Shown here piece after piece: positions 1 to 51,635 of a stretch of DNA of 64,000 bases. Origin of the DNA: an uncultured Pseudomonadota bacterium. GTDB taxonomy: Bacteria > Pseudomonadota > Alphaproteobacteria > RF32 > CAG-239. Position 1 is the first letter of the stretch. The number at the start of each line of letters is the position of its first letter. The notes beneath the pieces were generated by a model. The model saw only the letters and a list, made by a program, of their open reading frames with translations, was not told the origin of the DNA and did no database searches. The stretch is from contig CASFUZ010000004.1 in assembly GCA_949298065.1 (NCBI GenBank), positions 1-64,000 of the forward strand, in the 5' to 3' direction. A program made the position numbers and the translations under genes.

Positions 1-766
1 ATGCCCGTGGAACTCCGGCTTGGTCTTTTGCGGGTGTAATGAAAACTATCAATATAGTTGTACGGGCACGAATGAAACTGCCGGTGACAGCAAATGCGGT
101 GATTATTACGCTTCTTGCAACTGTGATAGTGGTTATAAATGGGAAGAAGGACGTTGTGTATCATCTCGTCCGAAATGCAATATCGGAGATATTTTTTATT
201 CTGACAATACTTGTGTTCCTGCCGGTAAACACGATCGCACCAAAACTGTTCTTGGTATTGTGTTTTATGTAAATTCGGATGGTGTCGGCGGACAGATAAT
301 GGCACCTTGGCCGATTGATGAGAATGGTAATAAGACCAGTAGTAATAATATAACAATGAAATGGGGTAAAGAAGGAGATGGTATAAATGCGCCAAATTAT
401 ACGTCAGCATCTTCAGCAGCAACGGACTATGATAGTTGCGGCAATACGGATAAAATAGTTGCGGCAGGTGATGCCAGCACTTATCCGGCAGCATGGGCAA
501 CAAGAAAATATGCCCCAACTACAGAAACAGCAGGTAAATGGTGCTTGCCGGCAGCGGGAATTATGACCAATATTTATAACAACCAAATGGCTATTCAGAA
601 TGTAATATCTAAGGTAGGCGGTGTAGAATTTCCGAGTTGTTGTACGTGGTCTTCGTCGGAGAACTCTAGCCACGGTGCTTGGATTTCTTACCTTGCCAAC
701 AGTTATGGTTTGGTCAACTACTATAAGAATTACTTTCACTACGTTCGCCCGGTGATGGAATTTTAG
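1..766 (+). CDS. Cys-rich exported protein with DUF1566-like C-terminal domain, 5' end outside window
   Basis: The reading frame is open from base 2 with no stop, so the gene starts upstream of the window; a TTG at 20 is only an internal Leu codon. About 60 visible residues are Cys-rich, in a CxC / GYKWEEGRC style like EGF-type modules, followed by RPKCNIGDIFYSDNTC and a domain with TVLGIV, MAPWPID, DSCGNTD, AAWATRKYAP, KWCLPAAG, WSSSEN and a terminal YVRPVMEF. This W/S/S/E plus VRPV pattern is that of DUF1566 (Lcl C-terminal-like, C-type-lectin-like fold). It is a close paralogue of the next gene 15 bp downstream and of the gene at 50.3 kb. Function is unknown; an extracellular or outer-surface binding role is inferred from Cys content and from the paralogue's signal peptide. 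Confidence 0.8.
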   Translation, partial: CPWNSGLVFCGCNENYQYSCTGTNETAGDSKCGDYYASCNCDSGYKWEEGRCVSSRPKCNIGDIFYSDNTCVPAGKHDRTKTVLGIVFYVNSDGVGGQIMAPWPIDENGNKTSSNNITMKWGKEGDGINAPNYTSASSAATDYDSCGNTDKIVAAGDASTYPAAWATRKYAPTTETAGKWCLPAAGIMTNIYNNQMAIQNVISKVGGVEFPSCCTWSSSENSSHGAWISYLANSYGLVNYYKNYFHYVRPVMEF

Positions 767-781
767 AAAAGGAGAAAGAAG

Positions 782-1558
782 ATGAGAAAAGTATTTTTGA
801 TGTTAAGCATATCTTTGTTCTCCCTGAATGCTGAGGCTGCTTGTTCGCCAACTCCGGAATGTGCCTCTTTGGGATATAAATATTCCTTGGGAAAATGCGG
901 CGGAGCGGCAATAAAATGCCCAAGCGGCGAAGGCTATTACTGCCCTAATCCTCTTTCTTTTTGTAGTATTGGTGATATTTATTATTCCGACAAAACCTGC
1001 ACCAGTGCAGATAACTATGACAGCTCCAAAACTGTGTTAGGAGTAGTTGTTTATATTACAGACGGCGGCAAACATGGGCAGATTATGGCACCTTGGCCGA
1101 TAGATGCAGATGGTAATAAGCTCAGTAGTATTAAAAAAACAATGATGTGGGGTGGTTATGGTAAGGATATATCCGGTTTGACAAATTATACATCAGATTA
1201 TTTAGCAACAACGGATTATGATAGCTGTGGCAATACGGATAAGATAGTTGCGGCAGGTGATGCCAGTACCTATCCAGCGGCATGGGCAACGAGAAGATAT
1301 GCGCCGACTTTGGAAACGATAGGAAAATGGTGTTTGCCGGCAGCGGGAATTATGACTAATATTTATTACAACCAAACAGCTATTCAGAATGCAATATCTA
1401 CGGTAGGCGGAGTATCATTCCCGAATTGTTGTACGTGGTCTTCGTCGGAGAACGACAACGGTTGGGCGTGGTACTCTGGCTTTAGTTACAGTTATGGTTT
1501 GGCCAACTACACTAAGAACAATCGCAATCTATACGTTCGCCCGGTACTGGAATTTTAG
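782..1558 (+). CDS. secreted Cys-rich DUF1566-like protein, second tandem copy
   Basis: Complete 258-residue protein. It starts at ATG 782 behind AAAAGGAGAAAG and has a clear signal peptide (MRKVF, hydrophobic stretch, cleavage near NAEA/AC). A short Cys-rich segment (residues about 21-65) leads into the same core as the preceding gene: SIGDIYYSDKTC, TVLGVVVYI, MAPWPIDADGN, TTDYDSCGNTDKIVAAGDAS, KWCLPAAG, CTWSSSEN and the terminal VRPVLEF. The first gene ends 15 bp upstream, so the two are probably cotranscribed. Upstream of the tail, differences between the copies are often synonymous; in the last ~35 codons identical nucleotide blocks alternate with divergent codons. The stop overlaps the convergent phosphatase gene by 4 bp, and I see no terminator between them. 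Ligand and role are unknown. Confidence 0.85.
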   Translation: MRKVFLMLSISLFSLNAEAACSPTPECASLGYKYSLGKCGGAAIKCPSGEGYYCPNPLSFCSIGDIYYSDKTCTSADNYDSSKTVLGVVVYITDGGKHGQIMAPWPIDADGNKLSSIKKTMMWGGYGKDISGLTNYTSDYLATTDYDSCGNTDKIVAAGDASTYPAAWATRRYAPTLETIGKWCLPAAGIMTNIYYNQTAIQNAISTVGGVSFPNCCTWSSSENDNGWAWYSGFSYSYGLANYTKNNRNLYVRPVLEF

Positions 1559-2103
1559 AGCTCTAACTCAAAATATTCGCAGTTTGCAAAAACGCGTTCG
1601 GTGCCGAAATAATGATAATATAAATTATACATTAAGGCACCGTGCGTGGCTACGCCGACCATATCATAAGTGCAATTTTTCTTTATCTCGTTCAGGGCTT
1701 TTAGTCCCCTTTCCGTTGACTGACGAACGCTCTCTGCCCCGGGGATAGACACATCAAAACGATTAGGGTTGTTCTCGTCCTTAATGGCCTTAAAAATATC
1801 TGCAAATTTTATATGCGCTTCCGCAGACAACATTCCTTCCGCAATACCATAATGAACTTCTTCCAGACCAGCTTGCTCAATGACCTTAGCCTTATTGGAT
1901 TCAGCCACAATCTGCGCCGTCTGCTTGGCTCTGGTCATCTTTGAACAATAGATTACGGGCAGATTAAGCTTTGCCAACTTATCTCTCAACTCCGCCGCCT
2001 GCATTTTCCCATGCTCATTTAAGGGGCAATCTACCCCTGCCCCTTGCACAATGTTTTTTACATTGCCATCCGTTTCGCCGTGTCTGAAAATTATGAATTT
2101 CAT
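1555..2103 (-). CDS. histidine phosphatase family protein (phosphoglycerate mutase-like)
   Basis: A 182-residue protein. The N-terminal FRHGETDGN is the RHG phosphohistidine motif of the histidine phosphatase superfamily, and VGVATHGALM near residue 154 supplies the second catalytic His. The PLNEHGKMQAAELRDKL and IYCSKMTRAKQTAQIVAE segments are typical of the GpmB/CobC/PhoE-like branch. The chosen ATG (2101-2103) sits 7 nt after AAGGAAG; an in-frame TTG two codons earlier leaves no room for that site. The substrate cannot be told from sequence: a small phosphoester such as a phosphosugar or alpha-ribazole phosphate is possible, and there are no cobalamin genes nearby. The gene is single, convergent with the DUF1566 pair. 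Confidence 0.85.
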   Translation of the reverse strand: MKFIIFRHGETDGNVKNIVQGAGVDCPLNEHGKMQAAELRDKLAKLNLPVIYCSKMTRAKQTAQIVAESNKAKVIEQAGLEEVHYGIAEGMLSAEAHIKFADIFKAIKDENNPNRFDVSIPGAESVRQSTERGLKALNEIKKNCTYDMVGVATHGALMYNLYYHYFGTERVFANCEYFELEL

Positions 2104-2241
2104 TTGCAATCTTCCTTATCAATTTTTTTTCTTAAGTATCACAAAAATATTTTTAGAATCTTAATATCAGCAATAAAACATTAATCTTTTTTGCTTATAA
2201 TTTTGCCGAATTTTGGATATTAGCCCTATGGAGAAAACAAA

Positions 2242-4878
2242 ATGGCTTTGAAGAAAAAAGAAGATAAATCGGCAGAACAAAATATCCTTGATGAAGAAAA
2301 GTATATTGATGACTTGGTCAGCAAGGTTAGTGCCGCTCAGAAAATTTTTGCAACCTATACTCAGGAGCAAGTGGACGAAATCTTTAAGCGCGTGGCTCTC
2401 AAAATGAGCTCTTTGCGTATTCCTTTGGCTCAGATGGCCGCTGAAGAAAGCCGTATGGGTGTTATGGAAGATAAGGTTATCAAAAACCATTTTGCCGCAG
2501 AATATATTTATAACAAATATAAGAACACTAAAACCTGCGGCGTGTTGGAAGAAGACCCCTTGAACGGTATTATGAAAGTCGGCGACCCGATTGGTGTTAT
2601 TGCCGGTATTATTCCGACCACGAATCCGACTTCAACAACCATTTTCAAAACCCTTTTGGCTTTGAAAACGCGTAACGGTATTATCTTCTCCCCGCACCCG
2701 AGAGCAAAAAAATGCACCGTGGAAACCGCTCGTATTATGCTTGAGGAAGCGGTTAAAGCCGGTGCGCCGAAAGATATTATTGCTTGGATTGAACACCCGA
2801 GCGTTACGCTCTCTCAATATTTGATGCAGCACCCGAAAGTTGACACCATTTTGGCAACAGGTGGTCCGGGGATGGTTAAAGCCGCTTATACTTCCGGCAA
2901 ACCGGCTCTTGGTGTCGGTCCGGGTAATGTGCCGGCGGTTATTGATGAAACTGCCGAGATTAAACCCGCCGTTTCTTCCGTCTTAATCTCTAAGACTTTT
3001 GATAATGGTATGATTTGTGCTTCCGAACAATCCGTCATTATTGTTAAAGATATTTATGATGCGGTTAAGGAAGAATTTGTTACCCGCGGCGCTTATTTCT
3101 TAAACGAAAAAGAAAAACAAAAACTTGGCAAAATGCTTTTGGAAAATGGTCATGTTAATGCCGATATTGTCGGACAACGCGCTACTACCATTGCCAAACT
3201 TGCCGGAATTAAAGTTCCTGAATACACCAAAGTTTTGATTGCCGAAGTTTCGGAAGTCGGACCGGAGGAACCTTTCTCGGCTGAAAAATTGTCTCCGGTT
3301 TTGGCTATGTACAAGGCTAAAAACTTTGAAGAAGCCGCCGCAAAAGCAAAATCTTTGGTTCTGTTCGGCGGTGCCGGTCATACGGCTGTTTTGTACACCA
3401 ATCCCAACAACCATGACCGTATTACGCATTATGGCGAGCTTATCCCGACCGCGCGTATTATCGTCAACAGCCCGTCTTCTCAGGGTGCACTTGGCGACTT
3501 ATATAACTTTATTTTGGAACCGTCTTTAACTTTGGGCTGCGGCTCTTGGGGCGGAAACTCAGTCAGCGGAAACTTGGGAGTGAAACATTTGATGAATATT
3601 AAAACGATTGCTATGCGTCAGGAAAATATGTTGTGGTTTAAGGTTCCGCCGAAAGTTTACTTTAAGGCCGGATGTTTGCCGCATGCTTTACGCGAGCTTA
3701 AAGGGCGCAAAAAAGCCTTTATCATTACCGACAAACCTTTGTTTGATTTGGGCTATACTCGTCCGATTACGGATGTTTTGGAAGAAGTCGGCATCAGTTT
3801 CCAAATCTTCTCTGATGTTCATCCTGACCCTGACTTATCAACCATTCATCAGGCTTTGGATTTGGTTGATGCCTTTCAACCTGACGTAATTATCGCCCTT
3901 GGTGGCGGTTCGCCGATTGATGCCGCTAAAATCGTATGGCTGATGTATGAACACCCTGAGCTCAAGTTTGAAGATATGGCTATGCGCTTTATGGATATTC
4001 GCAAACGTATTTTTGAATTTCCGGAAATGGGCAAAAAAGCTTATATGGTTGCCGTGCCGACAACATCCGGTACGGGTTCGGAAGTTACGTCTTTTGCCGT
4101 TATCACCGATGATGCAACCGGCGTAAAATATCCGATTGCAGACTATGCCCTCACACCGAATATGGCTATTGTGGATGCTAACCTCGTTCTCTCTATGCCG
4201 AAAGGTTTGTGCGCTGCCGGCGGTATTGATGCTTTGGTTCACTCTTTGGAAGCCATTGCGTCAACAATGTCTACCGAATATACCAACGGTTTGGCTTTTG
4301 AAGCTATCCGCCTGATATTTAAATATCTGCCGGCTTCTTACAATGAAGGCTCTCAAAATGCTGTGGCTCGTGAGAAAATTCACCATGCGGCAACGATGGC
4401 TGGTATGGCTTTTGCCAACGCATTCCTCGGTTTGTGCCACTCTATGGCGCATAAACTCGGTGCAAAATATCATATTCCGCATGGTATTGCTAATGCGCTC
4501 CTACTTTCTCAGGTTATGCGTTTCAACGCTTCTGACCACCCGTTCCGTCAGGCTGCTTTCTCTCAGTACAAATATCCTTGCGCGAAGTCTCGTTATGCAC
4601 GCGTGGCAGAATATTTGAACTTGGGCGGTAAGAACAAAGACGAAAAGCTTGATTTGTTGATTGAGAAAATTGAGGAACTCAAAAAGACTCTCAACATCCC
4701 TGCCTCCATCAAAGCATGGGGTATTGATGAAAAGACTTTTGAGGCTGACCTTGATGAGCTCTCTCTCTTGGCCTTTGATGACCAATGCACCGGAGCTAAC
4801 CCGCGTTATCCGCTGGTTGATGAAATCAAACAGCTTTATCGTTACGCCTATAAAGGTGTTACGAAGTTTGAAATCTAG
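2242..4878 (+). CDS. adhE: bifunctional acetaldehyde-CoA / alcohol dehydrogenase
   Basis: An 878-residue protein, the normal AdhE length (about 870-890). Residues ~20-450 form the CoA-acylating aldehyde dehydrogenase, with NAD-binding GVIAGIIPTTNP, the GVGPGNVPAVID loop and the catalytic Cys in NGMICASEQS (about residue 259). Residues ~460-870 form the iron-dependent alcohol dehydrogenase, with GGGSPIDAAK, VPTTSGTGSEVT and the metal-ligand segment LCHSMAHKLGAKYHIPHG. It converts acetyl-CoA to ethanol with two NADH, the usual anaerobic redox sink, and the family forms long filaments (spirosomes). The ATG follows GGAGAAAACAAA; a perfect TATAAT lies at 2196-2201 without a good -35 box. A strong terminator follows, so it is monocistronic. 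AdhE is uncommon in alphaproteobacteria and may have been acquired. Confidence 0.97.
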   Translation: MALKKKEDKSAEQNILDEEKYIDDLVSKVSAAQKIFATYTQEQVDEIFKRVALKMSSLRIPLAQMAAEESRMGVMEDKVIKNHFAAEYIYNKYKNTKTCGVLEEDPLNGIMKVGDPIGVIAGIIPTTNPTSTTIFKTLLALKTRNGIIFSPHPRAKKCTVETARIMLEEAVKAGAPKDIIAWIEHPSVTLSQYLMQHPKVDTILATGGPGMVKAAYTSGKPALGVGPGNVPAVIDETAEIKPAVSSVLISKTFDNGMICASEQSVIIVKDIYDAVKEEFVTRGAYFLNEKEKQKLGKMLLENGHVNADIVGQRATTIAKLAGIKVPEYTKVLIAEVSEVGPEEPFSAEKLSPVLAMYKAKNFEEAAAKAKSLVLFGGAGHTAVLYTNPNNHDRITHYGELIPTARIIVNSPSSQGALGDLYNFILEPSLTLGCGSWGGNSVSGNLGVKHLMNIKTIAMRQENMLWFKVPPKVYFKAGCLPHALRELKGRKKAFIITDKPLFDLGYTRPITDVLEEVGISFQIFSDVHPDPDLSTIHQALDLVDAFQPDVIIALGGGSPIDAAKIVWLMYEHPELKFEDMAMRFMDIRKRIFEFPEMGKKAYMVAVPTTSGTGSEVTSFAVITDDATGVKYPIADYALTPNMAIVDANLVLSMPKGLCAAGGIDALVHSLEAIASTMSTEYTNGLAFEAIRLIFKYLPASYNEGSQNAVAREKIHHAATMAGMAFANAFLGLCHSMAHKLGAKYHIPHGIANALLLSQVMRFNASDHPFRQAAFSQYKYPCAKSRYARVAEYLNLGGKNKDEKLDLLIEKIEELKKTLNIPASIKAWGIDEKTFEADLDELSLLAFDDQCTGANPRYPLVDEIKQLYRYAYKGVTKFEI

Positions 4879-50175: not shown

Positions 50176-50274
50176 AAATAAATAGGGCTTCAATTATAGT
50201 TGACTTTTGTGTGAAAGCGATGTATCCTGATATTTAGATATGGACTTTAATTCTAAATTATTGGGAGAATGACT

Positions 50275-51635
50275 ATGCGATACTTGCTCTTATCTACTGT
50301 GTCTTTACTCCGGCTGTCGCCTTAGCCGCTCCCGATTTTATCTCACATACACACACCACACCTATTGAGTTAAAGCCCATATCCACTTCTTTGGGAACCA
50401 AACTCGCCGGTGTCTGTTTCCTTGGCTTTGGTGATTGCGGTGATGGCGGTTTTTCTTCAATCAGCGGAGATGATAATTATACCTTAGATACGGCTCAACA
50501 ATGCAAAGATGAAGGATATGCTCAACAAAGTTGCAATTCTGTGCAACAACTTGACAACATTTGTCCTTATAATACGGCTTATGCAAAAGGATGTAAATGT
50601 ATTGATAATTTGGTAACTTGTTCCGAATGGCAAAAAGGTATCGGAGAAAGTTGTAACGAGCAATATACCTCTTGTGTTTGTTTGGATGGTGTTTCCGCCG
50701 GACAATATGGTTGCGCCGAATATTATCCTGCCCCATGTTCTTCCGTCTGCAAAAAAGCTTATGCCGATAACTGTCATATCCGGTCCGACAATAACTCAGC
50801 CGTTTATGGTTGTATGAAATATTGGAGCGATTGTTCCTCTAAATGCGAAACTCCTTATCCTGATAATTGCCGTAACAGAACAGAAGTTATTGCTTCTTGT
50901 CCGACTAATGCTACTTGCCAACCTTTTTCTGACTGCTCTTCTAAAATCAGTTCTTGGTCTTGTAATGACGGATACGAACCCAATGGAAACAACTGTATAT
51001 TATCAAGGCCAAGATGTAACCTCGGAGATATTTTTTATTCTGATAATACTTGCGTGGCTCCGTCTAACCATAATACCGCAAAAACCGTGCTTGGTATTGT
51101 GGTCTATGTAAATTCAGATGGGGTCGGGGGACAGATTATGGCTCCTTGGCCGGTTGATGCTAATGGGCAAACATATTGTACTGACTGTTCATCATCTAAA
51201 TTTGTTGAACTTACTTGGGGACCTTGGGGTGTTGATGTTCCTCAATTGACTAATTATGATCAATACAGCCGAACAGAAGCTGATAAAGAAATTGATAGTT
51301 GTGGTAATACGGATATACTGATAGCTGCCGGTGATGCTAGCACTTATCCCGCGGCATGGGCAGCAAGATCTTATGCGCCAACACCTGAAACAAAAGGTAA
51401 ATGGTGTTTGCCGGCTCAAGGTGTCCTTGGACATCTGGAAAATGATTTTGGAAACTTTTTTGTTGCTCGTGAAATGTTTGACAGATATTCGGGAGGGCGT
51501 GTATCTACATGGTCATCAACAGAAGGTACGGCATATTGGGCTTGGGCTGATTTGATTTCAAAATATGGATATAATTCTATTGCTTTACCTGGCAAAAGCT
51601 CTGGCTATCCCGTTTATCCGGTAATGGAATTTTGA
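50275..51635 (+). pseudogene. third DUF1566-like Cys-rich protein, frameshift in the signal peptide
   Basis: The body (from about 50308) encodes ~440 residues. It has a long Cys-rich region with repeated CxxY/SxC modules (SDCSSKCETPYPDNC, CSSVCKKAYADNC), RPRCNLGDIFYSDNTC, MAPWPVDANGQ, SCGNTD, KWCLPAQG, STWSSTEG and terminal PVMEF, matching the two genes at the left edge. GGGAG precedes ATG 50275, which encodes MRYLLLSTVSLL but then hits a stop at 50323. The body frame reads TPAVALAAPDFISHTHTTPIE across the same place, an ideal signal-peptide end. One missing base near 50305-50311 would join them. Either the gene is inactive, a sequencing error is present, or translation starts at TTG 50391 without a signal peptide. 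A terminator follows. Confidence 0.78.

Follow-up and report, generated by a model that had tools for sequence, protein, structure and literature searches.

Two tandem genes with conserved and variable tail segments

The window analyzed here, a stretch of 64,000 nucleotides, forms the start of contig C4 (GenBank CASFUZ010000004.1) in the draft genome (1.62 Mb, 36 contigs) of an uncultured alphaproteobacterium. It opens with two open reading frames (ORFs), at positions 2-766 and 782-1558, which are tandem paralogs with an identity of 63 to 65% and encode the variable proteins 1 and 2 (VP1 and VP2; Table 1). Their C-terminal tails, the variable regions (VRs) VR1 and VR2, are considered here as candidate targets of a diversity-generating retroelement (DGR), together with the template repeats (TRs) and reverse transcriptases (RTs) of related genomes. 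The window's genome contains nine good members of this family, which fall into two template types. The divergent member at 50238-51635 has a tail that reads WSSTEGTAYWAW...VYPVMEF.

Three blocks repeated in both tails had been described in an earlier note, and all of them proved to be exact; at full extent they measure 28, 15, and 14 nt, the middle one lying at 699-713 and 1488-1502. The right flank of VR1 corresponds to the 3' end of the TR and VR in relatives. Between the blocks, 16 of the 27 aligned codons differ, in agreement with the fraction of about two thirds given previously. As had also been claimed, the changes are mostly non-synonymous, since 14 of these 16 codons are altered at position 1 or 2 and only 2 at position 3 alone. 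The identity of VP1 and VP2 at codon positions 1 and 2 was 0.59 in the tail versus 0.83 upstream. Inspection by eye downstream of VR1 and VR2 revealed no cruciform-type hairpin.

The variable parts are rich in NNY codons, which account for 23/26 codons in VR1 and 21/27 in VR2, compared with 27/60 and 24/60 just upstream (pooled, 44/53 versus 51/120). This bias was also observed for amino acids that offer a choice of third base (11/12 versus 36/80, p = 0.002; 9/12 versus 33/84, p = 0.02), and the NNY excess was present in all seven VRs of this genome. AAY template codons that were randomised at A would leave a bias of this kind. One alternative is that ordinary mutation and positive selection on a binding surface shaped the tails, while gene conversion preserved the similarity of the flanks, no retroelement being involved. 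It is in line with the tandem arrangement of the paralogs, the identical blocks that they have in common, and the lack of an RT in the genome (see below), but not with an NNY bias that is restricted to the tail in 7/7 paralogs, even where the third base can be chosen freely.

The assignment of both proteins as DUF1566-like, also made in the earlier note, agrees with the predicted fold, although the Pfam match stays below the cut-off. Lcl_C (PF07603, formerly DUF1566) matched VP2 with an E value of 0.0035 (18.1 bits) and VP1 with 0.078 (13.7 bits), as compared to a Pfam cut-off of 34.9 bits, and a sequence search of the PDB with VP2 gave no match. The kinship to Lcl_C/DUF1566 therefore rests on the comparison of folds. 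The AlphaFold model of VP2 (mean pLDDT 72.6) has the same domain fold as the C-terminal domain of the Legionella adhesin Lcl (PDB 8q4e; Foldseek E 2e-3, Z 9.5), and BACOVA_04982 (4EPS) was its best VIA-align match (Z 13.5). To our knowledge, Lcl is not a DGR target. In the VR loop of the model (residues 231-241) the pLDDT is below 50, and the placement of variable residues there is unreliable. As judged by the modeled fold, the VRs sit at the C-termini of ORFs with a C-type-lectin-like domain, as in DGR targets. The N-terminus of VP2 is hydrophobic and, by eye, signal-peptide-like; proteins of the VP1/VP2 type are probably exported and may bind ligands at the surface.

Table 1. Coordinates of the variable genes and tails in the window and of the DGR in the congener G003 (contig C105, locus L087)
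Feature	Position	Strand	Description	Basis
VP1, variable protein 1	2..766	+	5' end lost at contig start; Cys-rich region, then Lcl_C/DUF1566-type C-type-lectin-like domain	ORF; own-genome paralogs, sub-threshold Lcl_C match
VP2, variable protein 2	782..1558	+	Complete, 258 aa; hydrophobic N-terminus, Cys-rich linker, Lcl_C/CLec domain	ORF; AlphaFold model, fold match
VR1	641..763	+	In frame, TGT ACG TGG ... GAA TTT; variable core 662-739	NNY-biased
VR2	1430..1555	+	Variable core 1451-1531	
Left conserved flank of VR1	637..664	+		28-nt exact copy at 1426-1453
Right conserved flank of VR1	740..753	+	TACGTTCGCCCGGT	14-nt exact copy at 1532-1545
Third, more divergent family member	50238..51635	+	Tail ...WSSTEGTAYWAWADL...VYPVMEF	465-aa open frame
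Avd (G003)	399-767			bAvd PF22296 E 8e-17, above cut-off; PHROG 'Avd protein of DGR' E 1e-20
Four tandem TRs (G003)	Starts 908, 1166, 1427, 1681		Repeats of ~258 nt	
RT (G003)	1823-3118			PIGNLTSQ and YVDD motifs

Template-directed diversification in related genomes

A complete DGR was identified in the congener G003, in which Avd, TRs, and an RT with the SQ motif described in PMC3521204 are found together on one contig of 7.5 kb. Avd is an accessory protein that many, though not all, DGRs possess, and the RT motifs PIGNLTSQ and YVDD correspond to the (I/V/L)GxxxSQ and YxDD signatures of DGR RTs. The TRs of G003 are A-rich, contain 15 to 19 AAN codons each, and read like WVWSSSEKSNNNAWNAKLNNSNLNNNNKNNNNNYVLPVLAF. 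Tandem TRs were observed in G003 (4), G030 (3), G012 (3), and G043 (2). In three genomes of genera other than that of the window, TR and VR could be compared directly within the same genome, and the differences were confined to adenines: 20/45 at A and 0/72 at non-A positions in G053, 21/49 and 0/68 in G038, and 14/42 and 0/72 in G043. The retroelement in the relatives is thus a DGR. The RT adjoins the same membrane-protein gene in G002, G003, G015, G038, and G053 and lies near it in G028 and G051, a neighborhood that spans several genera.

The earlier note had counted C/T differences at third bases between the two tails as evidence against a DGR, since adenine mutagenesis of a single template would not produce them. 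This objection is removed by the presence of 2 to 4 tandem templates that differ at such positions in the relatives. In G043, the third bases of AAY codons show C/T differences between TRa and TRb, and its ten targets, which are located on different contigs, sort by template, five being nearer to TRa and five nearer to TRb. At non-A positions, the targets mostly differ from the nearer template by 0 to 5 mismatches and from the other by 6 to 14; target L178 fits neither template well (12 to 13 non-A mismatches).

In the congener G002, a variable protein is succeeded by the G003-type RT in truncated form (96% identical). Upstream of the VR, the third-base identity among the five paralogs of G002 was 0.59 to 0.80, with one closer pair at 0.90, so that most of them are old; inside the VR, by contrast, third bases were 0.89 to 1.00 identical and positions 1 and 2 only 0.52 to 0.69. 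For the pairs that include a60 and a75, third-base identity rose from 0.59-0.73 upstream to 0.93-1.00 in the VR, although the tests on such pairs are not independent of one another. This homogenisation indicates copying from a shared template; positive selection would not homogenise third bases. The RT is cut to about 222 aa (C5, L084 2506-3183), and the VRs of G002 still agree with one template frame, for which reason we read the truncation as a recent inactivation.

Tails of the window's genome compared with the templates of a congener

With no own template in the assembly, the VRs of the window's genome were compared with the TRs of G003, another species. VR2 contains GAG AAC GAC AAC GGT TGG GCG TGG, which equals TR4 of G003 (...AAC AAA TGG...) except for one AAA codon, and VR1 carries TCT AGC, as in TR2 and TR3. 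Mismatches were more frequent at adenines for both VR1 against TR1 (22/43 at A, 18/77 at non-A, p 2e-3) and VR2 against TR4 (16/39 and 13/75, p 6e-3), and the third base was unchanged at 14 of the 16 AAN codons in the latter comparison. The adenine enrichment of VR1 and VR2 is modest, with p between about 0.001 and 0.08 depending on template and alignment, and calls for caution, as the best template was chosen. A much clearer signal was obtained for the own-genome paralog C30a, which mismatches TR1 at 27/45 adenines and 8/78 other positions (p 7e-9 with the hand alignment and 2e-5 with the automatic one).

Third-base identity in the VR versus upstream was 0.70 versus 0.64 for VR1-VR2, 0.85 versus 0.73 for VR1-C30b, and 0.83 versus 0.66 for VR1-C14. 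The agreement among VR1, VR2, C30b, and C14 (0.70 to 0.85) is thus intermediate and below that of the recently truncated G002.

These data also bear on selection and gene conversion as the sole cause of the pattern. This explanation is compatible with the near-upstream third-base identity of VR1 and VR2, but it leaves unexplained why C30a matches a foreign template at 70/78 non-A sites and differs from it at 27/45 adenines, and why direct comparison of TR and VR identifies close homologs, in the same genus and in the same family, as DGR targets. We consider it clearly unlikely for VR1 and VR2, and for the family it is already strongly disfavoured.

State of the retroelement in the window's genome

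The observation in the earlier note that the window contains neither an RT nor a TR was confirmed, and the absence extends to the whole assembly. In this draft we found no RVT_1 domain at E <= 1 and no match to the DGR RT of the congener; a search with the congener's Avd was negative at E <= 1; at the DNA level, VR2 and the congener's TR array retrieved only VRs or chance matches; and the matches to an AAY-type template pattern were no more numerous than in the control. The genome-wide search for a template copy and an RT, proposed in that note as a check, thus argues against present activity and does not refute an origin of the tails as DGR products. No RT was found in the congeners G001, G004, and G005 of the same clade either, and in a tree of the flanking gene these three and the window's genome (G000) separate from G002 and G003. 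The ancestral position of the RT is on contig C35, upstream of the membrane-protein gene. It is assembled, and in the 968 bp upstream of this gene we found the end of a Cys-rich gene instead of an RT. In G001, two of three tandem paralogs have tails that are off the template pattern.

A DGR that is still present and active would have gone unseen if its cassette were missing from the draft as a result of tandem TRs and VR paralogs breaking contigs. The assembly comprises 36 contigs, and family members are located at the ends of C3, C4 (two), C14, C22, and C30 (two), C14 breaking inside a VR; furthermore, the RTs of relatives are often near contig ends, and the DGR of G003 lies on a 7.5-kb contig. 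However, the assembly covers the ancestral RT site, where the Cys-rich gene is found, the congeners G001, G004, and G005 are equally without RT, the own VRs lack the third-base agreement of 93 to 100% seen in recently active sets, and the completeness of the assembly is given as 100%. We therefore regard an active DGR as rather unlikely. A loss of the DGR in the window's lineage, with a frozen repertoire, is favoured over an assembly gap, given the empty RT site, the RT-less clade, the off-pattern tails of G001, and the intermediate third-base agreement.

Horizontal exchange was considered as a further source of the tails, in that VR1 and VR2 would stem from recombination with VRs of DGR-bearing relatives and not from homing in this lineage. 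VP2 (window 782-2109) and a CAG:239 member (L083 1-1050) adjoin the same phosphoglycerate-mutase-like gene, and at this syntenic locus the two VRs are of different template types; members of two template types also coexist in the window's genome. No donor sequence was found, in the course of work that included no direct test of this idea, and we judge such an exchange to be highly improbable.

Taken together, we consider it very probable that VR1 and VR2 are DGR variable regions that belong to a multi-template family, the machinery of which has most likely been lost in this lineage. VR1 and VR2 themselves would then be products of DGR homing, and the loss would be real. The tails are probably orphaned targets that are no longer diversified, in about nine copies. 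The DGR reading of the tails in the earlier note accordingly holds for the family and, by extension, for both genes, but not in the sense of a DGR residing in this genome. Several observations weigh against our interpretation. The third-base identity of VR1 and VR2 hardly exceeds the upstream level, so that template copying is not evident from this pair taken by itself; both tails differ from the closest template known, that of another species, at 13 to 18 non-A positions; a template for the CTWSSSE/YGL/VRPV type was not seen in the genomes examined; and, with several contigs ending inside family members, a DGR contig may have been left unbinned or have collapsed.

In the mechanism that we propose, a single chromosomal DGR consisting of Avd, one to four tandem TRs, and an SQ-motif RT would use A-rich templates to rewrite many dispersed paralogs. 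The fixed non-adenine frame would be specific to each template, so that targets of different templates would differ at third bases, and NNY codons would be randomised at positions 1 and 2. The frames of VR1 and VR2 would come from two different templates. The window's lineage has most likely lost RT, Avd, and templates; about nine diversified genes would remain there as an orphaned set and would now change by ordinary mutation and recombination. A broader view, to which we give even weight for and against, is that a family of Alphaproteobacteria with small genomes uses one chromosomal DGR with up to four tandem templates as a library, each template with its own frame, length, and subset of targets (up to dozens of dispersed lectin-like proteins), and that some lineages, including that of the window, lose the machine and keep frozen paralogs.

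Relation to known systems

Several elements of this picture have been described singly, namely, DUF1566 targets (PMC4159848, PMC6642488), two-template DGRs (PMC6642488), and orphaned targets (PMC4891356). The DUF1566/Lcl_C targets of human microbiomes, for which 4EPS was the structure compared with TvpA (PMC4159848), resemble VP1 and VP2 in having a C-terminal VR within a DUF1566 domain of related fold; unlike those systems, the window's genome is without RT, Avd, and TR, and the multicopy family is served in relatives by tandem templates. Isolates of Treponema denticola that lack RT and TR retain targets that were read as core DGR remnants (PMC4891356), a persistence of targets similar to that proposed here. 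That case concerns another phylum, whereas here we find several template types, about nine targets, and an identifiable empty RT site. The DGR of Stenotrophomonas sp. SKA14, with two TRs and six VRs (PMC6642488), is similar in that it combines multiple templates with several DUF1566 targets. In contrast, the relatives studied here have 2 to 4 tandem TRs between Avd and RT, dispersed targets sorted by template, and, in some genomes, dozens of family members. In a limited literature search we found no description of arrays of up to four tandem templates with sorted targets and dozens of dispersed paralogs.

With several templates, C/T differences at third bases between VRs are no argument against a DGR. 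Intact, recently truncated, and lost systems occur as a series within one genus, which makes the decay of targeted hypermutation measurable, and the template-specific subsets of targets make it testable how DGR RNA picks from many targets. Should frozen repertoires prove widespread, a large number of the Asn/Tyr-rich DUF1566 tails of genomes without RT would be fossil products of hypermutation.

Additional observations in relatives and at contig ends

Two further RTs were not counted as DGR RTs: that on C21 of G006 barely matches the DGR RT (E 0.017), and that on C108 of G003, whose neighbor is a cytosine-methyltransferase-like gene, seems to be of another type. The RT on C3 of G010 was left outside the DGR set. 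For G028, which has an RT and more than 50 family members, a template was not found in the stretch examined. In G012 (C22; L141 5272), one repeat of the template array has few adenine codons (WSSSEYNYIGVWTVNATGG), which would fit decay of the array or homing into it. The genomes of G028, G043, G014, G010, and G024, of 1.5 to 1.7 Mb, contain 38 to 56 family matches each, which is a very large genome share for one target family. In the window's genome, the ends of contigs C12, C18, C23, C25, C31, and C32 carry a related Cys-rich N-terminal module in proteins of other architecture.
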